Part shown: one piece after another, positions 720 through 22,298 of the stretch
How positions within the stretch are numbered: position 1 is the stretch's first letter
Layout of the letters: each line of letters begins with the position of its first letter
DNA from: a virus
IMG/VR virus record: IMGVR_UViG_3300027970_000142
Span: 1-23,955 of that record
Length of the DNA: 23,955 nucleotides
Direction: 5' to 3' (one strand)
Made by a program: the position numbers and the translations under genes
Notes under the pieces: model-generated
The model's database searches: none
What the model was told of the DNA's origin: nothing
What the model saw: the letters and a program-made list of their open reading frames with translations, nothing else

Positions 720-1223
720 ATGATTTGTAATGCGGCGATTGATTTAGTTAAGAGTTTTGAGGGGATTCATGACGGGGATTTAACCGTTATTGGTTTACAG
801 CCTAAGATGTGTCCTGCTGGTATCTGGACGGTGGGTTATGGTAGGGCGTTGCGCAGTAAAACCACGAATGCTTTTTTAAAGGGGGCGTCAGGTAAGGCAG
901 AAGCGTTGGCTAAGTATCCTGCGCTGACGGTTGCGCAAGCTGAAGCAATGCTGGCCTTTGATTTAAACAATTTCAGTGCCAAGGTGCAGGGCTTAATTAA
1001 GGTTAAGGTTAATGTTAACCAATATGGCGCATTGGTGTCGTTTGCCTATAACGTGGGTACGGGCAATTTAGCGTCATCAACTTTGTTAAAAAAACTAAAC
1101 GCCAGGGATTATGCGGGCGCGGCGGTGGAGTTTTTAAAGTGGGATAAGGCGGGTGGTAAGGTTTTAAAGGGCTTAACGCTTAGGCGTACCGCTGAGATGA
1201 CGTTATTTTTACAGCCTTGTTAA
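720..1223 (+). CDS. Phage endolysin, GH24 lysozyme (RrrD/T4-lysozyme-like)
   Basis: This 167-residue protein hydrolyses peptidoglycan to release virions. The GH24 signature is clear: catalytic Glu14 in SFEG, WTVGYG at 36-41 with Thr37, and the later AYNVG and LRRTAE motifs. Where T4 lysozyme has its second acidic residue, six residues before the Thr, this protein has Cys31 (MCPAGIW). Cys there is tolerated in T4 lysozyme and is common in prophage lysozymes, so activity is expected. There is no signal peptide or signal-anchor helix at the N-terminus, so export should need a holin. No holin is adjacent; the membrane protein at 16851 is a possible partner. GAGG lies five bases before the ATG. 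Confidence 0.9.
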   Translation: MICNAAIDLVKSFEGIHDGDLTVIGLQPKMCPAGIWTVGYGRALRSKTTNAFLKGASGKAEALAKYPALTVAQAEAMLAFDLNNFSAKVQGLIKVKVNVNQYGALVSFAYNVGTGNLASSTLLKKLNARDYAGAAVEFLKWDKAGGKVLKGLTLRRTAEMTLFLQPC

Positions 1224-8401: not shown

Positions 8402-8680
8402 TTAAACCAATTCGCGTTCTGCTGCTTCGATTACGCTATCGGGAACGCCGTGTTTTTTTAATGCGGCAATCAGTTTAGTTGTTGAACTTGCTAAATAACG
8501 TGATTCATCTTGCCGCATTCCTGCACTGATATATGATTTAAGCAAGGTTTGGTATCCGGTAAAGCCCTTGTGCGGGGCGATTGCCTTCATTGATTCAACC
8601 ACATCAACAGGAATACTTAGCGTAATTGACATCATGGGTCTGTCTTTATCTAGGCGTTTTTTCAAGCGTTCAGAAAGCAT
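8402..8680 (-). CDS. brnA: BrnA-type antitoxin (ribbon-helix-helix)
   Basis: A 92-residue antitoxin that neutralises BrnT and represses its own operon by binding DNA. The family signature is the stretch SITLSIPVDVVESMKAIAP followed by GFTGYQTLLKSYI, matching the BrnA ribbon-helix-helix. It lies downstream of the toxin and overlaps it by 11 bases, which is the usual brnT-brnA order. The cassette is on the minus strand among + strand structural genes, as expected of an autonomously expressed moron. Confidence 0.85.
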   Translation of the reverse strand: MLSERLKKRLDKDRPMMSITLSIPVDVVESMKAIAPHKGFTGYQTLLKSYISAGMRQDESRYLASSTTKLIAALKKHGVPDSVIEAAERELV

Positions 8681-8963
8681 AATGTATTTCCTCGTTAGGA
8701 TCGGTGCGGCGTGCAGAAATAATGCGAAGAGCCGTGTTTTCTATCTCAATGTGTACGACATAAAGCAATTGTCCAGTATTATCAAAACCAATAGCGGCAT
8801 TACGGCACTCACCTTGGCGCGATGCATCGAGCAGCACAAATAGGGGGTCGGCGAAAACGCTAGCGGCAACTTCAAAGCGGACGCCATGTTTACGCCAGTT
8901 TTTAGCCGCTTTGTCTTCATCCCAAACAAACTTATCGCCATCAATTTCAACATAAATATCCAT
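8670..8963 (-). CDS. brnT: BrnT-type toxin (RelE-like ribonuclease)
   Basis: A 97-residue toxin of the BrnT family, whose characterised members are RelE-fold ribonucleases that stop translation. Recognisable blocks are KFVWDEDKAAKNWRKHGV, FEVAASVFADPL, and LRIISARRTDPNEE near the C-terminus. All family blocks are intact, so it should be functional. No Shine-Dalgarno sequence precedes the ATG; the best promoter places the transcript start close to the ATG, so translation may be leaderless. It would stabilise the prophage or act in inter-phage competition; this is inference from other TA modules. Confidence 0.87.
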   Translation of the reverse strand: MDIYVEIDGDKFVWDEDKAAKNWRKHGVRFEVAASVFADPLFVLLDASRQGECRNAAIGFDNTGQLLYVVHIEIENTALRIISARRTDPNEEIHYAF

Positions 8964-9199: not shown

Positions 9200-9232
9200 A
9201 AATCTATTATCACTCACTTGTCTCGCTTGCTT

Positions 9233-11809
9233 ATGGATAATGCTCAGCATACTGCTTTTAATTTTTTCGCACCAGAAGATGAGCGTATTGACGCGCTGGC
9301 GGCGTTACAGAAAACCTATCAACCCACGGATACTGAGTTATTGTCTGCTGAGGTCTTGGCCGAAATAACGGCGCTGGCTCATAATAATGACCCTCTTTTA
9401 AAGGCGATTGATCCTGCCTTAGTCCCTTTTCCCTCAGCTAATTCAGTACAGCATTCGCCTGGTATGCAGTCGGCTTTTTTAGATGAGTTTCAGCTAAATA
9501 GTCAGGGTGATTACTGGGAACGACCTTCAACCATAAGTTTTGATGGCTTACGCGCTATGGCGGCACAAACGCCTGTTTTAAATGCGGTTATTATGACTCG
9601 CGTAAGGCAGGTGCAGCGGTTTTGTCGGGTCTGTGAGAGCAATACTACATTGCCTGGGTTTGAAATCAGGCATGTGGATAGAAAGCATCAATTAACCGCC
9701 AGCGAGCACGAAAAAATTGCTCAGTACATTAGTTTTATTAGCCATTGTGGTAATGAATCTTCTGCCAGAGCCCGTAAAATTTTGCGGCGTGATAGCTTTG
9801 CGCAGTTTATGGGAAAAGCTACCCGAGATAGTTTACTTTTGGATTCTGTGGCGATAGAAACCGAGCGTGCCAAGGATCGTAGGCTTGGTATTGTGGGTTT
9901 ATATTTGGTTGATGGCGCAACGATACGGTTATGTCCAGAATCAGGCTATAGAAATAATAAAGATCTGTTTGCCGTGCAGGTTGTTAATGGCTTGGTGCGA
10001 ACGGCTTATGGCTATGATGATTTAATCTATGAGGCCAGAAATCCACGCTCAGATGTTTCGGCAATCGGCTATGGTTTGCCTGAAACTGAGCTGTTAGTGC
10101 GCGTGGTGACCAGTTTTTTAAATGCCATGACACTTAATAGTAATGTGTTTGATAAAAACTCGATTCCAAAAGGCATCTTGCATTTAAGCGGTAATTATTC
10201 GCAAGAAGATTTAAGTGCTTTTAAACGCTATTGGCAAGGTATGGTGAAAGGCTTGGATAGCCATTTAACTGTTCCTGTGTTGGTGTCAAAAGATCAGGAA
10301 TCGCGTGCCGCGTTTGAAAAGTTTGGCATTGATTTTAATGAGATGATGTTTGCTAAGTGGATGACTTTTTTAACTTCGCTGATTTGTGCCATTTATGGCA
10401 TGTCACCCAGTGAGATTAACTTTGATAGTTTTACTGGCGGCAGTACCAGTGCGTTAGGGGGTAATGATACCGCTGAAAAATTGGCGGCTTCTAAAGATAG
10501 CGGTTTACGTCCGTTGTTGTCTTATTTTGAGAACGTGCTAACCGATTATGTGGTGAATGAATTAGATAATGATTTTTGCTTTCGTTGGACGGGTTTGGAT
10601 GTTGAGGATCAAGATAAAAAGTATGAATTACGCAAAACCCTGTTGACGCTGAATGAATTACGCGCCGAAGAAGGTTATGAAAAAATTGATGGTGTCCTGG
10701 GCGATGCGCCCGTGGAGGCTTCTTTGTTGAATGCGTGGATGCAGTTGCAGGCACAGCAACAGCCAGAAGGTGAAGATACGCCGGAAGGTGAAATGGACAA
10801 TGACGATACCGACAGTCAATCGGGAAGTCTGGAAGCTGATAGGGAAGGCAGCGGTGAATTGAACAAGTCCTTCAGTCACCCTGAGGGCAGGCAGGGGCAA
10901 CGGGGCGGAAGTTTGCCTAAACAGGCGGTTGACATAGGTGATAGTCAAACGATCCCGCCAAGCTCAACTATTGCGACATATCAGCAAGCGCATGATTATT
11001 ATCAAGCTAACCTTGCCGGAAAATCGTTTTTAATTGATGTGAAAATAAAATCAAATTTACAGCCAATTGCCGTATTTTTTGATAGGCTCAACAGCCATAT
11101 TTATACGCGAGAAGCAAAAGAAGGAGAAACGCCCGACACCTGGGACAATAAAAAACACTATCGTGGGTCGCGTGTTTTTGATGCTAGTCGAGCCGTTCAC
11201 ATGGATAAGATTTTACCTACATTACAACAGCCGACTATTATTCTTGAGTCAAACGGACGTGATTTATATATAGGCAAAAAAATTGATATGGATAGGTTTG
11301 AGATTGTTGTTTTAACTGTGGATAGCGTTAATAAATGCACATTATCAACAGCACAACCAAGAAGCAAAGAAGAAGTCAATCGCCTTCGTGAAAGACTAAG
11401 ACCAGTAAAGCTTGGGCAATTTAGAAAAGCGTTTGAGGGTCTAGCCGAAGCGCAAAATCTGCGCTTGGCTAGTAGAACTGACTTACTGGCGTTAAGGGCA
11501 TCCACCCTGGGATTATCTGATAACCCCCCAGCGCCCACCTTACAGGTCCAGACCGAGGCGGATAAAAATATAGCCCTATATCCGCACCTTGTCAAATCCG
11601 CCACTGACGCACCCGCGACACTTGAGGGCATCTTATCTGGCGATTATCGCCCTGATTCGCCTGAGCAACTGCTTGATTTAATTGAAGCTGCTACCGCGCA
11701 ATTGCCAGACTCAGAACCGTTGCTTGTCAAAGCATTGGATGTTTGGCTTGAACATTATGATGACCGTATCGCCACGCCAAGCTTGCAAGCGGTTGCGCTT
11801 AATGGATAA
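9233..11809 (+). CDS. Portal protein with C-terminal PBECR-like domain fusion
   Basis: The portal forms the dodecameric vertex through which DNA enters and leaves the head. Residues about 85-510 carry portal features: an N-terminal clip/stem region, GLYLVDGATIRLCPE, SFLNAMTLNSNVFDKNSIPKG and GGSTSALGGNDTAEKLAASKDSGLRPLL. Residues about 510-575 are a Gln/Glu/Asp-rich linker. Residues about 583-725 form an extra domain related to the repeated domain of the next gene: SHIYT with His622, ASRAVHMDKILPTL, PTIILESNGRDLYIGKK, then STAQPRS. The 858-residue total is far above a normal portal. The start is uncertain: ATG 9233 is used, TTG 9218 is in frame, and neither has a ribosome binding site. Confidence 0.8.
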   Translation: MDNAQHTAFNFFAPEDERIDALAALQKTYQPTDTELLSAEVLAEITALAHNNDPLLKAIDPALVPFPSANSVQHSPGMQSAFLDEFQLNSQGDYWERPSTISFDGLRAMAAQTPVLNAVIMTRVRQVQRFCRVCESNTTLPGFEIRHVDRKHQLTASEHEKIAQYISFISHCGNESSARARKILRRDSFAQFMGKATRDSLLLDSVAIETERAKDRRLGIVGLYLVDGATIRLCPESGYRNNKDLFAVQVVNGLVRTAYGYDDLIYEARNPRSDVSAIGYGLPETELLVRVVTSFLNAMTLNSNVFDKNSIPKGILHLSGNYSQEDLSAFKRYWQGMVKGLDSHLTVPVLVSKDQESRAAFEKFGIDFNEMMFAKWMTFLTSLICAIYGMSPSEINFDSFTGGSTSALGGNDTAEKLAASKDSGLRPLLSYFENVLTDYVVNELDNDFCFRWTGLDVEDQDKKYELRKTLLTLNELRAEEGYEKIDGVLGDAPVEASLLNAWMQLQAQQQPEGEDTPEGEMDNDDTDSQSGSLEADREGSGELNKSFSHPEGRQGQRGGSLPKQAVDIGDSQTIPPSSTIATYQQAHDYYQANLAGKSFLIDVKIKSNLQPIAVFFDRLNSHIYTREAKEGETPDTWDNKKHYRGSRVFDASRAVHMDKILPTLQQPTIILESNGRDLYIGKKIDMDRFEIVVLTVDSVNKCTLSTAQPRSKEEVNRLRERLRPVKLGQFRKAFEGLAEAQNLRLASRTDLLALRASTLGLSDNPPAPTLQVQTEADKNIALYPHLVKSATDAPATLEGILSGDYRPDSPEQLLDLIEAATAQLPDSEPLLVKALDVWLEHYDDRIATPSLQAVALNG

Positions 11810-11818
11810 CAGCTCACT

Positions 11819-14800
11819 ATGACGATACACCACATCGAAGCCGCCGTCACGGCAATGAAAACCCGCTTTAAAACTGCGCCTGTGCCGGAGCGTATCCGCT
11901 TGGCAAAATGCTTGTTAGCCTTTGAGCGTTATTTAGCCAAAGCTAACCCAACGCATGACCTATTAGGGCGGTTTGCCGCGTCTGAGACGGGCAAGGCTGA
12001 AACTGCCCTCAGCACCTTGCCAGAGGCTGCGCAGTATTATCAAGATCACCTTGCTGGCGTATGGCGGCTAACGATTCAACGCAAAGCGGGTACTTTTGAT
12101 GTGAAGGTCAATTTTAATGAAAACCAAGACCATGCCTACACTAAGACCAACAAAGACACCGGAACGCGTGAATTTGACGCGGTAAGGGCTGAATTTATGC
12201 CGAAAATGCTTGATACCATTAGCGCACCTGATGTTATTTTGCAAAACGGTAACAGGGATTTATTTATCGAAAAACAAATGAACGGCGTGCATTATGCCGT
12301 GGTGTTGGAGTGGAAGGATTCAGCTAAGGAGTACCGCTTTAGATCGGCGCATTGTTGGGATAAGATGGAATATGACCGCAACAAAAAGAATTATACAAAG
12401 CCCGCTGTTAGGGGCAGAAAAGTAGGGCAAAAAAAAGCCCCAGAACGATTAAGTAAATCGTCTGGGGCTGACTCCACATTTACCCACTTGCGTGACACGT
12501 TTGAAAAGTCACAAACGCCTCCGACCTGTCAGAGCGCCCTTGTTCAACTCAATGAGCTGGGTGGGGAACTTGCCGAAACAAGTAGTTGCTATCCCAAGGT
12601 AAGTATTGATGGATTCACTGATTTTGTCAAGCCAATCGATTGGCAGACTATTGCACTTGAGCCCTTCAATAAAGCCAATAGCCATCATGATGGGCTGGGG
12701 CGGTTTGCCGCGTCTGAGACGGGCAAGGCTGAAACTGCCCTCAGCACCTTGCCAGAGGCTGCGCAGTATTATCAAGATCACCTTGCTGGCGTATGGCGGC
12801 TAACGATTCAACGCAAAGCGGGTACTTTTGATGTGAAGGTCAATTTTAATGAAAACCAAGACCATGCCTACACTAAGACCAACAAAGACACCGGAACGCG
12901 TGAATTTGACGCGGTAAGGGCTGAATTTATGCCGAAAATGCTTGATACCATTAGCGCACCTGATGTTATTTTGCAAAACGGTAACAGGGATTTATTTATC
13001 GAAAAACAAATGAACGGCGTGCATTATGCCGTGGTGTTGGAGTGGAAGGATTCAGCTAAGGAGTACCGCTTTAGATCGGCGCATTGTTGGGATAAAGAGG
13101 AATATGAAAGTAATCTTAAAAATTACCTACGTCCTGCACCACACGGTAAAAAAACTACACAAAAAAAAGCCCCAGAACGATTAAGTAAATCGTCTGGGGC
13201 TGACTCCACATTTACCCACTTGCGTGACTCGACTGCATTACTGCAATCGCCGCCGAAACATAACTGCACATCCGACGCGTCGTTGGTCAACTCATTAGAG
13301 CCAGGTGGGGAACTTGCCGAAACAAGTAGTTGCTATCCCAAGGTAAGTATTGACGGATTCACTGATTTTGTCAAGGCAATCGATTGGCAGACTATTGCAC
13401 TTGAACCCTTCAATAAAGCCAATAGCCATCATGATGGGCTGGGGCGGTTTGCTTCTGGACTTTTAGGTCAAGAAACTAATCTGCCATCTTCTGAGAGTAT
13501 TAGCACCTTACAAGAGGCTACGCATTACTATCAAAATCATATTGCTGGGATATGGCAAGTCACTATTCAGCGCAAGGCGGGCAATTTCTCAGCTAAATTG
13601 AATTTAAACGATAACAAAGATCACGCCTATACAAAAACAAATGAGGCAACAGGGCTGCGTGAGTTTGATGTAAAACGTGCAAGACTAATGCAGCACTTGT
13701 TTAATGCTATTACAAAGCCAGATGTTATCTTACAAAATGGTAGCAGGGATTTATTTATTGAAAAACAAATAGACGGACTGCATTATGCCGTGGTTTTAGA
13801 ATGGAAAGAATCAGCTAATGAATACCGCTTCAGATCAGCCCATCCTTGGAGTAAAGAAGAGTTTAATAACAACTTAAAAACGTATAATCGCCCATTAACA
13901 CGAGGCAAAAAAACAGATAAAAATATCTCGCCTAAACGACTAAGTAAGTCGTTAGGCGAGACCACCACATTTTCCCACTTGCGTGACTCGACTGCATTAC
14001 TGCAATCGCCGCCGAAACATAACTGCACATCCGACGCGTCGTTGGTCAACTCATTAGAGCCAGGGGACGCACCTGTATTATCAGGTATTGGCTGGCGTTT
14101 TGCTTTCACTGATAGTATTGACAGATTCACTGATTTTGTCAAGCCAATCGATTGGCAGACTATTGCACTTGAACCCCTCCAGAAGGCCAACAGCCACCAT
14201 GATGGGCTGGGGCGGTTTGCCAAAAACAATGATAACCATCCTTATCTGCCAAAATCTGATGACATTAATACCTTACAAGAAGCTAAAGCTTATTTTAGCA
14301 ACCACATTGCTGGGCATTGGCGTATCACTATCCATCGTAAATCGGGATGCTTTTCAGCGATAATAAATTTTAATGAAAATCAAAACCATGCCTATACAAA
14401 AGCGGACAAAACAACAGGTAAACGCAATTTTGACCAGCAACGTGCGAGGCTAATGCAGCACTTAATCGAGACCATTAGTAAGCCAGACATTATTCTTGAG
14501 AATGGAAATCGTGATGTGTACATCGAGAAACAAAAGACTGACTCTTATTACGCGGTAGTTTTGGAATGGCGGAACGATGCTAAGGAATACCGGTTTAGAT
14601 CGGCGCATTGTTGGGACAAAAAAGAATACGACAGAAACGTACAAACCTATCGCAGACCGAAGGCAAGAGGGTCTAAATTAGAAAAAAACAAAGCCCCAGA
14701 ACGGCTTAAAAAGTCGTTTGGGGCTTCCACCGCCTTTACCCGCTTGCGTGACATGATTGAAGAATTGCAACCATCACCAGATTGCCGGAGCGTCGTTGGT

Positions 14801-16774
14801 CAACTCAATGAGTCGGGCTGGGAACTTGCCGAAACAAGTAGTTGCTCTCCCACTATAAGTATTGACGGATTCACTGATTTTGTCAAGCCAATCGATTGGC
14901 AGACTATTGCACTTGAGCCCTTCAATAAAGCCAATAGCCATCATGATGGGCTGGGACGGTTTGCCGCGTCTGAAGGTACATCCGTCCGTTTATCCCCCAA
15001 TGGCAAGCCGTCTAACCTAACTGCCGAACAATGGGCAATGGTTAGAACGCCTGAGTTTAAAAGGTGGTTTGGTGATTGGGATTTAGCTGCGGCAAAGCCA
15101 ATAAGGGAAGCCTATAATTTTGACCAAGCGCGTAATGCTGTAAAGCAATTTCAAAATAAGCCTTTAGAAAATACGCAAACAGGCATGATCGTTACTTTGT
15201 CTCGCAATAATTTGGATAAGATGTTAAGCAGCAAAGCGGTTGGTAAGTCAGAATCAGCCGCAGGCCATTCATTAGCTGTAGCGAATGTGGATGATTTGTT
15301 TAGGAGGTCAGTCTTGGGGTGGAGTAAGCCAGATAGGGATGGAAATACCAACATAACGGCTATTCATCGATTTTTTGCACCGTTAAATGTCTATGACCAT
15401 GTAAGACTGGTGAAGATGACTGTGAAGGAATTTGCCAGTGATAACCAAGGCAACAAGGTCTATTCAGTAGAATCTATAGAATTTGATGAGTTAACCCCAG
15501 CCGCTCAATGGGTTGACGCGACAATCAGAGAAGATAATCTCGATCCGATTTCAATCCGCTCGGCTGAGGCTGTTATCAGTTTAGCTAAAAGAGTGCAAGA
15601 CTTCAAGGGTGATTCATCCAAAGATGTGGATGAAAACGGCGAACCGTTGGCGTCTAAACTTGCCTATTACCTAGCTGGAGGAGAAAACAACACTATCACC
15701 ACGACACCCACAACAAAGGAGCATCCCTTCCATAAAGCCCATAACCACGATACCCCGCACGATATTTTTGAAGCCCATGAGAACCCGTTTATCCGTGGCT
15801 TGGTTGAGGACTACTATGAAAGCGGCATGCTTAGAGTGTCGGCGCTTCGCGTTGCCTTAAACCAGTGGCTGGCGGGTCAGCGTCAGCAGCTTGATAAGGC
15901 TGGATTGTCGGTGCCTGAGGAGTTGCTGTATGCCAGTGTTTGGCATGACGCCGAGGCGGGGCGGGTGACGGATTATTTAGCGGGTATTCATCCTGAGGCC
16001 TTTACTGTTAAGGATTTAAGTTTATTGACACGGCTCTTGGTGCGTAACTATTTACCCTCCGATGTGCTGATTGATGAGGCACTGACTCAGAGTGCACAAA
16101 GTTTGATGATGGGGGCGGTGCAGGCGCATTGGCAAGCTAGCCATGAGGAGTCTATTTCGTTAGCGCAGGTGGCGGCATTACGCGCTACGCTGCCCACTAC
16201 TTTAGAGGCTGTGGTGCAGGCTTTGCGGTTAGCGCCCGTGGCTAAAGCCTGTTTGGATTATGGTGCGGTGCGTGCGGCGGAAAATATTGTTGCGTTATCG
16301 AGGGAGGCGCGTGCGTCTATTCAACAGGTATTAATGGCGCATGCCTTAAAAAAACAGTCAGGCGATCATACGGCGACACCTCAATATTTGGAGCAACGCT
16401 TAGGCGATACGTTTGCTAACTTAAACCGCGATTGGCGACGTATAGCGTTAACAGAAACGGGTGAAATGTCTTTGCAGGGTTTTGTTGCGGCGCAAGCTCT
16501 TGGCACAAAACTGAAACGCATTGAGCAGTATCGCGGTGCCTGTGGCTTTTGTAAAAAAGTAGACGGCATGGTGATGGAGGTGGTTGATCCTGAACTGCCC
16601 GTTAAAGATGGGCGCACGCAGATATGGGTAGGTAAAACTAATATAGACCGCGCTAGCAGCGCACGAAAACGCACTGAGGCGGGCTTGGTGGCGAGAGCTG
16701 AGCATGAGCTATGGTGGTTGGCGGCGGGGGTTATTCATCCGCATTGCCGTGGTCTTTGGGTGCGTGTTGAGTAA
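11819..16774 (+). CDS. Giant MuF-type head morphogenesis protein with four tandem PBECR-like domains and an LPD3-like domain
   Basis: A 1651-residue polyvalent protein. Five HDxxGRFA motifs (near residues 46, 290, 538, 794 and 1042) begin modules. Four modules hold a roughly 120-residue domain resembling phage Barnase-EndoU-ColicinE5/D-RelE-like (PBECR) nucleases. Conserved in all four: HAYT (His105, His349, His602, His857), P-D-V/I-I-L, NRD or SRD plus IEKQ, YAVVLEW and EYRFRSAH. The fifth module starts LTAEQWAMVRTPEFKRWFGDW and continues as an LPD3-like domain (about 1100-1260). The C-terminus (about 1310-1651) is Mu gpF-like: DWRRIALTETGE, CGFC (1575-1578) and HPHCRG (Cys1643). MuF proteins attach to the portal inside the head. 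Putative nuclease effectors carried in the virion are inferred. Confidence 0.8.
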   Translation: MTIHHIEAAVTAMKTRFKTAPVPERIRLAKCLLAFERYLAKANPTHDLLGRFAASETGKAETALSTLPEAAQYYQDHLAGVWRLTIQRKAGTFDVKVNFNENQDHAYTKTNKDTGTREFDAVRAEFMPKMLDTISAPDVILQNGNRDLFIEKQMNGVHYAVVLEWKDSAKEYRFRSAHCWDKMEYDRNKKNYTKPAVRGRKVGQKKAPERLSKSSGADSTFTHLRDTFEKSQTPPTCQSALVQLNELGGELAETSSCYPKVSIDGFTDFVKPIDWQTIALEPFNKANSHHDGLGRFAASETGKAETALSTLPEAAQYYQDHLAGVWRLTIQRKAGTFDVKVNFNENQDHAYTKTNKDTGTREFDAVRAEFMPKMLDTISAPDVILQNGNRDLFIEKQMNGVHYAVVLEWKDSAKEYRFRSAHCWDKEEYESNLKNYLRPAPHGKKTTQKKAPERLSKSSGADSTFTHLRDSTALLQSPPKHNCTSDASLVNSLEPGGELAETSSCYPKVSIDGFTDFVKAIDWQTIALEPFNKANSHHDGLGRFASGLLGQETNLPSSESISTLQEATHYYQNHIAGIWQVTIQRKAGNFSAKLNLNDNKDHAYTKTNEATGLREFDVKRARLMQHLFNAITKPDVILQNGSRDLFIEKQIDGLHYAVVLEWKESANEYRFRSAHPWSKEEFNNNLKTYNRPLTRGKKTDKNISPKRLSKSLGETTTFSHLRDSTALLQSPPKHNCTSDASLVNSLEPGDAPVLSGIGWRFAFTDSIDRFTDFVKPIDWQTIALEPLQKANSHHDGLGRFAKNNDNHPYLPKSDDINTLQEAKAYFSNHIAGHWRITIHRKSGCFSAIINFNENQNHAYTKADKTTGKRNFDQQRARLMQHLIETISKPDIILENGNRDVYIEKQKTDSYYAVVLEWRNDAKEYRFRSAHCWDKKEYDRNVQTYRRPKARGSKLEKNKAPERLKKSFGASTAFTRLRDMIEELQPSPDCRSVVGQLNESGWELAETSSCSPTISIDGFTDFVKPIDWQTIALEPFNKANSHHDGLGRFAASEGTSVRLSPNGKPSNLTAEQWAMVRTPEFKRWFGDWDLAAAKPIREAYNFDQARNAVKQFQNKPLENTQTGMIVTLSRNNLDKMLSSKAVGKSESAAGHSLAVANVDDLFRRSVLGWSKPDRDGNTNITAIHRFFAPLNVYDHVRLVKMTVKEFASDNQGNKVYSVESIEFDELTPAAQWVDATIREDNLDPISIRSAEAVISLAKRVQDFKGDSSKDVDENGEPLASKLAYYLAGGENNTITTTPTTKEHPFHKAHNHDTPHDIFEAHENPFIRGLVEDYYESGMLRVSALRVALNQWLAGQRQQLDKAGLSVPEELLYASVWHDAEAGRVTDYLAGIHPEAFTVKDLSLLTRLLVRNYLPSDVLIDEALTQSAQSLMMGAVQAHWQASHEESISLAQVAALRATLPTTLEAVVQALRLAPVAKACLDYGAVRAAENIVALSREARASIQQVLMAHALKKQSGDHTATPQYLEQRLGDTFANLNRDWRRIALTETGEMSLQGFVAAQALGTKLKRIEQYRGACGFCKKVDGMVMEVVDPELPVKDGRTQIWVGKTNIDRASSARKRTEAGLVARAEHELWWLAAGVIHPHCRGLWVRVE
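11966..12363 (+). repeat. 398-bp exact direct repeat, copy 1 (PBECR-like domain 1)
   Basis: Base for base the same as 12698-13095, by direct comparison. It covers the GRFA motif and the whole first putative nuclease domain. Identity ends abruptly within the C-terminal part of the domain, where copy 1 reads DKMEYDRNKKN and copy 2 reads DKEEYESNLKN. Confidence 0.93.
12436..12469 (+). other. Conserved coding-sequence hairpin 1
   Basis: AGCCCCAG, bulged A, ACGATT, loop AAGTA, AATCGT, CTGGGGCT: 8 bp, one bulged A, 6 bp and a 5-base loop. It is preceded by eight A. It encodes APERLSKSSGA between domain 1 and its junction. Three further hairpins of the same architecture follow in this gene. Confidence 0.85.
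12698..13095 (+). repeat. 398-bp exact direct repeat, copy 2 (PBECR-like domain 2)
   Basis: Second copy at an offset of 732 bp (244 codons), so the reading frame is preserved. The linker after this copy is shared with module 3 rather than module 1: 13215-13305 equals 13974-14064 over 91 bp, so the array is a mosaic. Confidence 0.93.
13168..13201 (+). other. Conserved coding-sequence hairpin 2
   Basis: Identical in sequence to hairpin 1 (offset 732) although the bases just before it differ. It is also preceded by eight A. Confidence 0.85.
13215..13305 (+). repeat. 91-bp exact direct repeat in the linker, copy 1
   Basis: Identical to 13974-14064. It encodes the linker THLRDSTALLQSPPKHNC onward to NSLEPG between module 2 and its junction. 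Module 1 lacks this version of the linker. Confidence 0.9.
13927..13960 (+). other. Conserved coding-sequence hairpin 3, compensated
   Basis: CTCGCCTA, bulged A, ACGACT, loop AAGTA, AGTCGT, TAGGCGAG. Many stem bases differ from hairpins 1 and 2, yet every pair is restored on the other side, and the bulged A and the loop are kept. Confidence 0.85.
13974..14064 (+). repeat. 91-bp exact direct repeat in the linker, copy 2
   Basis: Second copy of 13215-13305, here after the diverged module 3. Its right end passes into a different sequence carrying ACCTG-TATTAT-CAGGT, where modules 1, 2 and 4 carry ACTTG-CCGAAA-CAAGT. Confidence 0.9.
14691..14726 (+). other. Conserved coding-sequence hairpin 4
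   Basis: AAGCCCCAG, bulged A, ACGGCT, loop TAAAA, AGTCGT, TTGGGGCTT. The same architecture is kept with two G-T oppositions (14699/14718 and 14704/14714). These pair as G-U only in + strand RNA and would be C-A mismatches in the antisense strand. Confidence 0.75.
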
Positions 16775-19270: not shown

Positions 19271-19361
19271 GTAGACCGGATAAGCGCTAGCGTCATCCGG
19301 CAAATAACCCAAAGGTGCATGACGCTATCGCTTATTCGCCCTGCGTTTCTATGCGGTCTAC
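19271..19361. repeat. REP/BIME-like inverted repeat pair
   Basis: GTAGACCG (19271-19278) and CGGTCTAC (19354-19361) form the outer arms. Inside, CGGATAAGCGCTAGCGTCAT (19277-19296) matches the reverse complement of 19319-19338 at 18 of 20 positions. The left arm also forms its own hairpin, CCGGAT at 19276-19281 with ATCCGG at 19295-19300. This is the layout of bacterial REP pairs, so a host-type repeat has probably moved into the phage between the two divergent promoters. Confidence 0.65.
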
Positions 19362-19394
19362 ACGGTAAGCTTTTCCACCGTTATTGCTTTATAG

Positions 19395-19413
19395 GCTGTC
19401 GTGACAGTAGTCT
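19395..19413 (+). promoter_or_regulatory. Candidate phage promoter (site 5)
   Basis: GCTGTCGTGACAG (19395-19407) followed by TAGTCT (19408-19413). TTGCTT lies 18 bases before the -10 box. Transcription would start at about the ATG of the next gene (19421). Confidence 0.5.
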
Positions 19414-19420
19414 ACTAGCT

Positions 19421-20278
19421 ATGAACATTATCAATACTACTCAGCATTTACTTACTCAGCTTCCTGATTACCTTGTGGTAGGCGGGTTACTTAAAGCTAC
19501 GCCTGCCGAAGAGAATGGCGCGCGCTATTTGTATTTTGAAGCGTCTAATGAAGAGGTTGATCATCAAAATGAAATAATCCTTGCCAAGGCCTTAAGCGAT
19601 TCTGCTGAGTATTATTTGCGCCATGGCAATGTTGATTTGTCGCATTATTCTATTTTAGGGGCAAAATCAGGGCTTGCTAATTTTATGGAATATGAGATTG
19701 GTAAGCCGATCGATGTGCAGCTAAATAATACTAAAACTTTTGTAAAGGTGCAGTTGTATACGGGTGAATCAGCCATGGCTAAAAATGCCAATATGGTTTG
19801 GGATTCTTTAACCCGACAACAGCCGCCCAGCCGTTGGTATCCTTCGGTGGGCGGTGTGGTGTTGTCAAAATCGGTGCGTATCGAACCCAGTACGGGCGAG
19901 AAGATTGCCGTGGTGGATAAGGTGCGCTGGAATAATATTGCGTTAGATCGTTGTCCCGTTAATAAAACTGTGCCTGAGGTGTCGGCTGCGCCTGTAGGGG
20001 TGTTTGCTAAAAGCCTGAATGGCTTTGTGATAAAAGCGTTAACCGCAGACGCACAAGGCGCTGATGTGGCGAATTTAACAGGCGGTGCAGCGTTACGCAT
20101 AGCGTCTTTATACGGTAAGCCTTACGCTTATTATCGTAATCTGTTAGCCAAGCAGTTAAGAACTCAGACCTTGTCGCCGCATCATATCACTCAGTATGCA
20201 CAGCATCAGTTTGGTTTTACGACCAGCGAAGCGCAGGCTTTCCAGAACCAATTTTTAACCGATCTTAACCGTGCATGA
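19421..20278 (+). CDS. Prohead-protease-like protein
   Basis: A 285-residue protein first in the capsid gene group. The segment YLYFEASNEEVDHQNEIILAKAL resembles the entry of phage prohead proteases; His75 in VDLSHYS and Ser142 in RWYPSVGG fit the His and Ser positions of the HK97-type fold. It would cut scaffold and capsid during head maturation. The last 70 residues are an additional helical region containing LTGGAALRIASL (219-230), nearly repeated at the N-terminus of the capsid protein. ATG 19421 has no ribosome binding site; a longer frame upstream runs through the promoter motif and is not favoured. Scaffold and capsid genes follow. Confidence 0.6.
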   Translation: MNIINTTQHLLTQLPDYLVVGGLLKATPAEENGARYLYFEASNEEVDHQNEIILAKALSDSAEYYLRHGNVDLSHYSILGAKSGLANFMEYEIGKPIDVQLNNTKTFVKVQLYTGESAMAKNANMVWDSLTRQQPPSRWYPSVGGVVLSKSVRIEPSTGEKIAVVDKVRWNNIALDRCPVNKTVPEVSAAPVGVFAKSLNGFVIKALTADAQGADVANLTGGAALRIASLYGKPYAYYRNLLAKQLRTQTLSPHHITQYAQHQFGFTTSEAQAFQNQFLTDLNRA

Positions 20279-20344: not shown

Positions 20345-20878
20345 ATGAATGATTTTGACGCATTGCTTGAAGAAATTGAAGCGTTACGTTTAGCCAAAGC
20401 ACTGACTGAGCACCACGTTGATGAGAAGGATGATTTGGCTGAGGATAATGAAGAGGTCGATGCTACGTTAAGCAAAGCTTTTTCCGTCCAGTTGCCTGAT
20501 GGCAGCACCGTTGAGGCGGTTGAGGGCACTGAGTTAATTAAAGCGTTGTCTGTGCAAATTGAGGAGCAAGAGGCGTTGTATAGCACGCAGCAAGAGCAGG
20601 TTTTAAAATCAATGGGTGGCTTAATGCAGTTAATTAAGGCGCAAAATGAAGCCATACTGGCATTGCAGCACAGTGTAATAGGGTTGCGTCAGGAGGGCAG
20701 TGGCAGAAAGTCAGTTGTTTCTGCGCCCTTTGTCAATGCCGAAAGCTTTATGGCAAAGGCCTTAAAATTAACTTCTGCTGGGAAACTTTTGCCCGCTGAT
20801 GTTTCTGTTCTGGAACTGGCAGGCTTTAATGAAGCGAATGTACCAGCCCATTTAATTAATAAAATCAATCTGTTATAA
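20345..20878 (+). CDS. Probable scaffolding protein, 177 aa
   Basis: An acidic, helical protein between the protease-like and capsid genes, the usual place of a scaffold. Residues 1-40 are strongly acidic (LLEEIEALRLAKAL, EKDDLAEDNEEVD), and 60-110 form a likely coiled coil (LSVQIEEQEALYSTQQEQVLKSM). The C-terminal third is more basic (GSGRKSVVSA) and could bind capsid. It is expected to be removed by the protease during maturation. AGGA lies about ten bases before ATG 20345. A weak hairpin, ATGGT / ACCAT, lies in the upstream gap. Confidence 0.6.
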   Translation: MNDFDALLEEIEALRLAKALTEHHVDEKDDLAEDNEEVDATLSKAFSVQLPDGSTVEAVEGTELIKALSVQIEEQEALYSTQQEQVLKSMGGLMQLIKAQNEAILALQHSVIGLRQEGSGRKSVVSAPFVNAESFMAKALKLTSAGKLLPADVSVLELAGFNEANVPAHLINKINLL

Positions 20879-20888
20879 GGAGTTTATC

Positions 20889-22298
20889 ATGCAACTATCG
20901 ACGTTAACCGCTGCCACTGAAGAAATGGCACAATTACAAAAAGCCTTGCAAGCAGGGTATGGCACAGATTCAGCCACGTTAACAGGTGGCGGTGCGCTGC
21001 GCATTCAATCCTTAGAGCATTCGTTAATGAGTTTGCTTTATAACACTACGCATTTTGCACTGTACAATAAATTACCTAAAGAAACCTGCACGGCAACGGT
21101 TGATGAGTGGACAGAATTAAGTGATATAGGTGGCTATTTGGGTGGTTCGGTCAATGCTGAGATGGGCATTATTAAAGATGCGACGGGGTCGTTAACCCGA
21201 CGCGTGGGTATGGTCAAGCATTTAATGACGCGTCGGCAAGTGTCGACTATTGCCGCAGCGCAAAATAGTATCTTAGAGCCTGAGTCGGTGGAGGTGCAAA
21301 ACGGTGCTTTGCAATTATTGCGCGATGTAGAATATTTGTTATTTGAGGGTAATTCGGCGGTGGTGGGCGTTGAGTTTGATGGTATTGCGACGCAATTAAA
21401 ATCATTACATTCAAGTGATCATATTATTGACTTACAAGGTGCTGCGCTGAATGATATTAATATGATTTCACGCGCGGCGGAGGTTATTGCCTACCGTGGT
21501 AATGGCAATGCGACGGATATTTTTATGAATTATTCTGTGCAAAAAGATTTAAACGATGCGTTAAATCCAGCGTTTAGAATAAGTTTAAATGATAAGCCAA
21601 CAGAAATAGCCAATGGCGCGGTGATCACTGATATTAATACCAGTTTTGGGGTTATTAAAACCAATCAAGATCGTTTTGTGCGTGATGAGCGCGAAAAAGT
21701 CCCGTTTGAATTATTAAATCCAGCTACCGCAGCGGCTAATGCGTTTAAGCCTGCAAGTGTGAGCATCGATGCAACGGTTACCGATGGTGGTACTAAGTTT
21801 GCCAGTAATACGGGCAATTATTATTACGTGGTGACGGGCATTAATGCTGAGGGTCAATCGCTTGGTGTCGTTACGGCACAAACTGCGGTGGCAGCGGGTA
21901 AAAAAGTAATGTTAACCATTGCTAAATCCGTGGCGGGCACCGAAACAGGCTATGTTATTTATCGGAGTAGAAAAAACGGTACGAATGCGTTAAGCGATGT
22001 GCGTGAAATGGTGCGTATTCCTGTTTCTGGCGGCGCGACTACGGTATATAACGATCTTAATGAAGAGATTCCTGGCACCACTACCGCTTATGTTTTAGAT
22101 TTGGGACAAAACGGTACTAAACCTATTACCTGGCGGTCTTTAATTCCTATGGCACGCGTAGAGCTGGCGGTCACTAATCAGTTGGCGAAAACATGGGCGC
22201 AATTTATGTCTGGCTATTTGCGCGTGGGTATTCGTCAGCGTCATGTGGTGATTAAAAACATCGTGCCAACGGGTGCCAACTGGAAACCCTTCGCCTAA
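20889..22298 (+). CDS. Major capsid protein with inserted fibronectin-like domain
   Basis: A 469-residue protein in capsid position. The N-terminal arm (1-45) contains LTGGGALRIQSL (31-42). Residues about 46-285 and 400-469 look like an HK97-fold core (DEWTELSDIGGYLGGSVNAEMG, RDVEYLLFEGNSAVVGVEFDGIATQL, then MARVELAVTNQLAKTWAQFMSGYLRVG). Residues about 286-395 look like a fibronectin type III or Ig-like insertion (YYYVVTGINAEGQSLG, GYVIYRSRKNG, TTVYNDLNEEIPG), a surface decoration known in several phage capsids. The ribosome site AAGGAG lies ahead of the ATG, and start and stop are tightly spaced with the neighbours. Confidence 0.78.
   Translation: MQLSTLTAATEEMAQLQKALQAGYGTDSATLTGGGALRIQSLEHSLMSLLYNTTHFALYNKLPKETCTATVDEWTELSDIGGYLGGSVNAEMGIIKDATGSLTRRVGMVKHLMTRRQVSTIAAAQNSILEPESVEVQNGALQLLRDVEYLLFEGNSAVVGVEFDGIATQLKSLHSSDHIIDLQGAALNDINMISRAAEVIAYRGNGNATDIFMNYSVQKDLNDALNPAFRISLNDKPTEIANGAVITDINTSFGVIKTNQDRFVRDEREKVPFELLNPATAAANAFKPASVSIDATVTDGGTKFASNTGNYYYVVTGINAEGQSLGVVTAQTAVAAGKKVMLTIAKSVAGTETGYVIYRSRKNGTNALSDVREMVRIPVSGGATTVYNDLNEEIPGTTTAYVLDLGQNGTKPITWRSLIPMARVELAVTNQLAKTWAQFMSGYLRVGIRQRHVVIKNIVPTGANWKPFA

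Follow-up and report, generated by a model that had tools for sequence, protein, structure and literature searches.

The portal protein gene in the window, a 23,955-nucleotide stretch of viral DNA (positions 1 to 23,955 of IMG/VR virus record IMGVR_UViG_3300027970_000142), carries at its 3′ end a region encoding a domain that resembles BECR-fold RNase toxins. We propose, with a probability a little below 60%, that this domain is a cargo that would be freed by the protease in the prohead, ejected with the DNA and directed against RNA. Three lines of sequence-based evidence point in this direction: homology to four repeats of a MuF-like protein encoded immediately downstream, the predicted fold, and a short motif, read here as a protease site, that brackets the domain on both sides.

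The portal domain and its relatives in the MuF-like protein

The portal open reading frame matches the Pfam family Phage_portal (PF04860) with an E value of 3.4e-16, which passes the cut-off, and the portal family phrog_12 with an E value of 1.1e-37. It comprises 863 aa from a TTG start, although an ATG at position 9233 is a better fit to relatives. The same portal is present in four IMG/VR contigs (L001-L004) with 99-100% identity across core, domain and tail, and the family survey found five contigs in which the domain is read in frame with the portal. We considered a frame error in the window portal and rejected it, because the portals of L030 and L039 have the same open frame with the domain; the frame is also open in L001-L004.

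The original prediction described the C-terminal domain of the portal as a relative of the MuF-borne domain, preceded by an acidic linker. Indeed, such a linker is found at residues ~515-550, and BLASTP matches the domain to all four MuF repeats with E values of 9e-17, 3e-16, 3e-15 and 1e-12, far beyond chance, at 27-30% identity. Genome-level matches between the domain and the repeats range from E 4e-14 to 2e-10. The predicted limits, 10978-11420, located the domain correctly, but the homology extends slightly further, with a core at about 10943-11422 (residues 576-735). The portal copy was also said to have drifted further than the MuF copies, and this is correct because it is 29-31% identical to the MuF repeats, whereas those are 55-93% identical among themselves; in the tree it is highly diverged, with a branch length of 2.5.

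The shared sequence blocks named in advance are present in the portal. These are S-H-I-Y-T (residues 626-630; D/N-H-A-Y-T in the MuF repeats), P-T-I-I-L (672-676; P-D-[VI]-I-L), R-D-L-Y-I (681-685; R-D-[LV]-[FY]-I) and S-T-A (710-712; R-S-A). Only the N-G expected ahead of R-D-L-Y-I is out of place, the portal having a shifted S-N-G-R-D instead of N-G-x-R-D. Neither the portal domain nor a MuF repeat matched any sequence of cultured phages, even at E 1, a sequence search of the PDB gave no significant match, and a scan of genome contigs yielded no relative.

In the MuF-like protein the repeats occupy residues 42-965 and the MuF-like module about 1304-1651. This C-terminal module has no direct Pfam match; a relative at 28% (L019) matches Phage_Mu_F with an E value of 3.8e-4, below the cut-off. 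Repeats 1 and 2 (11942-13189) are 93% identical with a dS of 0.14, indicating a recent tandem duplication, and repeats 3 and 4 are much older than this event. Just upstream of the portal gene and on the opposite strand (8402-8963, minus), the window also encodes an RNase toxin of the BrnT type (PF04365, E 3.1e-24), accompanied by a CopG-like partner.

Table 1. Features of the portal gene and other head genes in the window. A vertical bar within a motif marks the predicted cut.
Feature	Coordinates	Strand	Evidence or remark
Portal protein gene	9218..11809	+	Phage_portal PF04860, phrog_12, family survey
Portal layout: core aa 1-~515, acidic linker ~515-550, BECR-like domain ~576-735, tail 738-863			
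K62, portal N-terminal h-x-K|[AS] site, LLK|AID	9401..9403	+	regional site in 37/38 related portals
K550, predicted protease site LNK|S upstream of portal domain	10865..10867	+	motif
Portal BECR/PBECR-like domain, predicted protease-bounded unit S551-K737	10868..11428	+	BLASTP, AF2, VIA-align
H627-I-Y-T block, putative catalytic His	11096..11107	+	H, Y, T invariant in 7 aligned copies
K687, invariant Lys of portal domain	11276..11278	+	alignment of copies
S710-T711, putative catalytic alcohol, last core strand of portal domain	11345..11350	+	alignment and AF2 model
K737, predicted protease site FRK|A downstream of portal domain	11426..11428	+	motif
K793, predicted protease site LVK|S, portal tail	11594..11596	+	motif
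K838, predicted protease site LVK|A close to portal C-terminus	11729..11731	+	motif
MuF-like protein: four BECR-like repeats, LPD3, C-terminal minor-head (MuF-like) module	11819..16774	+	
MuF unit 1 (A42-K213), LAK|A to LSK|S	11942..12457	+	motif borders
MuF unit 2 (A286-K457), FNK|A to LSK|S	12674..13189	+	motif borders
MuF unit 3 (A534-K710), FNK|A to LSK|S	13418..13948	+	motif borders; AF2 pLDDT 87.4
MuF unit 4 (A790-K965), LQK|A to LKK|S	14186..14713	+	best single-repeat PBECR2 score, E 6.6e-5
LPD3 domain of MuF-like protein	15125..15463	+	PF18798 E 1.3e-17
Head maturation protease, presumed cutter of the sites	19319..20278	+	phrog_1028 E 4.7e-15
Presumed scaffold, between protease and major head protein	20345..20878	+	six h-x-K-[AS] sites
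Major head protein, conserved LQK|A site at K18	20889..22298	+	phrog_752 E 7e-81

Predicted fold and putative active site

AlphaFold2 models were built from the seven known copies of the domain; that of the portal domain is usable (pLDDT 77.9, pTM 0.73) and that of MuF repeat 3 is good (pLDDT 87.4, pTM 0.83). Both models contain a helix followed by four strands, which in the portal domain are helix 79-93 and strands 97-101, 105-113, 116-126 and 129-139. Given the portal model, VIA-align puts a Salmonella toxin (7vd7, Z 5.2), BrnT (4.4), RelE2 (3.9), a CDI toxin (3.8) and YoeB in the top rows, and given the MuF repeat model, RelE1, BrnT and RelE (Z 4.3-4.0) and HigB. BrnT, whose family is also encoded upstream of the portal gene, is thus among the top structural neighbours of the portal domain. 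The Z-scores for BECR folds are modest, with values of 4-5 at the top and under 8 throughout, and the top rows agree across the two models. As anticipated, the modelled portal domain is closest in fold to BECR (RelE/BrnT/CDI-type) RNase toxins, at a modest Z of 4-5. Foldseek searches of the models against the PDB and BFVD gave no match under 0.001, the best BFVD match being a phage minor capsid protein (E 0.01), and NTF2-like folds are also listed among the structural matches.

Membership in a PBECR family, for which a profile search had been suggested, was not borne out for the portal copy taken singly, which scores 15.0 bits against a PBECR2 cut-off of 27.1. Single MuF repeats reach 17-24 bits against the same value, and no single copy passes the gathering threshold of PBECR2 or PBECR3 (PF18810/PF18812). 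The summed MuF repeats do pass both Pfam cut-offs, with 48.8 bits for the summed protein. Because no single copy passes, we name the domain BECR/PBECR-like and not PBECR2 or PBECR3.

The putative catalytic His and Ser/Thr are kept in all seven copies (H627 and S710/T711 in the portal), the Lys at K687 is invariant, and the H, Y and T of the H-x-Y-T block are invariant across the alignment. In the MuF model a short helix (52-55) contains the His (H54) and strand 120-129 contains the Ser of R-S-A, and the His of the portal model falls within a low-confidence loop. A MAFFT alignment to the PBECR3 domain protein of the L049 record left the placement of that protein's His ambiguous, so the match of the active site is based on the models and on the residues conserved across the family; too few further PBECR3 relatives turned up for a profile. 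Moreover, the portal copy is without the Glu of I-E-K and the His of S-A-H, both of which are kept in all other copies. Because of the loss of these two residues and a PBECR2 score of only 15 bits (cut-off 27.1), the window portal copy may be inactive, and we treat it as a putative RNase of uncertain activity.

The motif h-x-K-[AS] in head proteins and at cargo borders

The motif h-x-K-[AS], defined as [LFMIVWY]-x-K-[AS], was first noticed in portal C-termini, and its expected frequency was taken from within-protein shuffles. It is enriched in four proteins of the window: the scaffold (6 sites versus 0.7 expected, p 0.0005), the protease (5 versus 0.9, p 0.0015), the MuF-like protein (17 versus 5.2, p 0.0005) and the portal (6 versus 2.0, p 0.011). 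None of the tail proteins of the window is enriched in the same shuffle test. The scaffold open reading frame has no family match, and its presumed role is based on its position. The cultured Pseudomonas phage Dolphis has six sites in its scaffold (0.67 expected) and six in its protease (1.1 expected; p 0.001 each), with totals of 27 versus 11.5 expected in head proteins and 48 versus 42.8 in all others.

The positions of the sites recur among relatives. The motif falls within the last 35 residues in 33 of 40 distinct related portals, where 1.6 would be expected, and at about residue 43-76 in 37 of 38 (4.5 expected). Likewise, the major head proteins of all six distinct relatives found carry it upstream of the head fold. 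The N-terminal scaffold domain of the HK97 major head protein is 103 residues long (PMC10275583), and the sequence at this junction, TFNK103|S104 (TFNK|SLGS), fits the motif. The HK97 relative D3 was tried as a second experimental anchor and does not fit, since the junction after its 113-residue scaffold domain lacks the motif; protease specificity therefore varies, and the HK97 match could be luck. On the sequence evidence, the motif is most simply read as the head-maturation-protease site of this clade, which makes the individual occurrences predicted sites.

Sites of this kind flank all ten cargo domains examined, carried on the portals of the window, L030, L039, L049 and L066 and on the MuF-like protein, at distances of 3-42 residues upstream and 2-91 downstream. 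Only two sites lie inside cargo domains, which hold 137 lysines, versus 29 outside, where there are 93 lysines (Fisher test on lysines, p 4e-11, with sites, repeats and relatives statistically non-independent). In the window portal, K550|S551 and K737|A738 delimit a unit of 187 residues, and the MuF units are 172-177 residues long. In the MuF-like protein (11819-16774), each cargo unit is preceded by a predicted cut after which comes the peptide K-A-N-x-x-H-D-x-x-G-R-F-A. This peptide is also found in the portal linkers of L006 and L049; it may be a shared linker or loading signal.

Related portals, alternative readings and known systems

Most related portals in the family survey are without cargo and have only the linker and a short C-terminal peptide. 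The same domain is present on intact portals of 866-868 aa in two other lineages (L030/L031/L037 and L038-L044), and the MuF-like protein of L030 is short (389 aa) and lacks the repeat. By identity and in the tree, the portal copies of L030 and L039 are nearer to the window MuF repeats (49-55%) than to the window portal copy (26-29%), and hence the domain has been transferred, either from one of the two proteins to the other or from phage to phage. One duplication event within this phage was rejected, as it does not explain this closeness. The L030 and L039 portal copies differ from each other with a dN/dS of 0.16, a sign of purifying selection. In three further lineages an LPD3 domain (PF18798) occupies the same place on the portal (L049, E 1.4e-10; L066, E 1.2e-15; L006, E 1.9e-11). 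The L006 frame is broken at an A-run between the linker and portal core and LPD3, which may be a sequencing error or true slippage.

Other arrangements were noted in the same neighbourhood. The portals of L054 and L057-L060 continue in frame into a domain that in other relatives has its own gene between portal and MuF. Further toxin-like genes are found in L008 (10136-11941), which encodes a Zeta-toxin-like domain (E 3.9e-17), and in L030 (9277-10587), which encodes an ART-PolyVal and LPD3 protein (E 2e-23). In Rhizobium phage RHph_N28_2 (L095, 1444-1803), a small separate gene located between the portal and major head genes resembles the PBECR3 domain of the L049 record.

The portal ring, which is dodecameric in tailed phages, would bring about 12 copies of the domain into the prohead. 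If the motif is the cleavage site of the phage head maturation protease, cutting at K550|S551 and K737|A738 would then leave a normal portal and a free cargo of about 187 residues, while each copy of the MuF-like protein would yield four similar units. The classical injected head protein is T4 Alt; here the freed domains would leave together with the DNA and, once inside the new host, would cleave or bind RNA, either host mRNA or RNA of a defence system. The passages on PBECR domains in Iyer et al. 2017 (PMC5512222) suggest host or phage mRNA, or CRISPR RNA, as targets. The same cargo families (BECR-like and LPD3) would be loaded interchangeably by way of two platforms, portal and MuF. A wider and more tentative proposal, to which we give somewhat less than even odds, is that this clade of myoviruses uses the C-terminus of the portal as a general slot for cargo. 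BECR-like and LPD3 effectors bounded by h-x-K|[AS] would pass from phage to phage and from portal to MuF or back, and the head protease would release about 12 copies from the portal ring within the capsid, from where they could be ejected with the DNA.

The original prediction instead left the domain on the portal in the virion, as an effector at the DNA channel; there it would act as a tethered RNase or RNA-binding domain. The presence of the domain in the portal frame of five contigs, and also in the L030 and L039 lineages, agrees with this. However, sites of the h-x-K-[AS] motif flank the domain exactly, other carriers likewise have them conserved on both sides, the same motif marks the scaffold, protease and major head protein, and portals without cargo keep the same C-terminal site. 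Because the domain is bounded by protease-like sites, its release by cleavage within the head is more likely than its retention at the channel, where it probably does not stay; a lasting tether is the least probable of the explanations we considered. The main rival to released cargo is a propeptide that is cut off and lost, since propeptides generally leave the head (PMC10052503). By analogy, the domain might serve only in assembly, for instance in prohead targeting or scaffold binding, in which case its toxin ancestry would be irrelevant and this copy dead. The long portal propeptides of SPN3US are cut and mostly lost (PMC10052503), and the strong divergence of the window portal copy (branch 2.5), together with its missing S-A-H His and I-E-K Glu, is consistent with such a role. 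We nevertheless judge it unlikely, as the domain is absent from most related portals, a different cargo (LPD3) takes the same place, and H627, K687 and S710/T711 are kept. Purifying selection on the L030 and L039 copies (dN/dS 0.16) and the exchange with LPD3 favour, but do not prove, cargo over propeptide.

An equally improbable reading grants the domain a BECR-like or NTF2/cystatin-like fold with a role other than that of a nuclease, such as binding RNA or DNA inside the head. The NTF2-like folds in the match lists and the Foldseek result, with nothing below 0.001, lean this way, as does the RNA binding that Iyer et al. 2017 (PMC5512222), in the passages on PBECR domains, infer for the inactive PBECR of phage Mu; but BECR RNase toxins are the top VIA-align rows for two models, and the putative active-site residues are invariant. 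Should the domain indeed be an RNase-like cargo released by the protease, the portal ring would load a fixed dose of about 12 copies, the protease motif would allow cargo borders to be read in other phages, and many annotated portal or MuF fusions would be separate proteins in the virion. For the release of virion toxin domains fused to structural proteins, sequence alone would thus offer an answer, namely excision by the head protease.

Fusions of this kind are already known, because Iyer et al. 2017 (PMC5512222), in the passages on PBECR, state both portal-PBECR and MuF-PBECR fusions. Those polyvalent proteins share with this phage a BECR-like domain on portal and MuF, a location in the head gene cluster and a His and Ser/Thr configuration. 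In contrast, single copies of this phage fall below the PBECR2/3 cut-offs, one phage carries the same cargo on portal and MuF, with four in tandem on MuF, and protease-like sites bracket the cargo; in the same passages we found no mention of a prohead protease releasing cargo from portal or MuF. MuF polymorphic toxins (Jamet et al. 2017, PMC5576092) also have toxin-like domains on a portal-adjacent minor head protein, for which delivery with DNA has been proposed. Their order, an N-terminal MuF domain and then a C-terminal toxin, is not that of the MuF-like protein described here, where the cargo precedes the MuF-like module and is found on the portal as well. The RNase toxins BrnT, RelE and HigB and the CDI toxin 6cp9 are the best structural neighbours of both models (Z only 3-5), but they are encoded in toxin-antitoxin or CDI systems and are not virion proteins.

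The closest precedent is SPN3US gp53/gp54, where one prohead protease with one motif (AXE) cuts the major capsid protein, the portal and ejected proteins (PMC10052503). A motif common to these classes is likewise found here, with h-x-K-[AS] in the major head protein, portal, scaffold and protease and around the cargo, where cutting is predicted. SPN3US differs in using another motif and in encoding its ejected proteins as separate genes and not as cargo cut from the portal. Within the literature searched, the new elements are a cargo shared by portal and MuF in one phage, its exchange with LPD3, and protease-site borders that suggest a route for its release.
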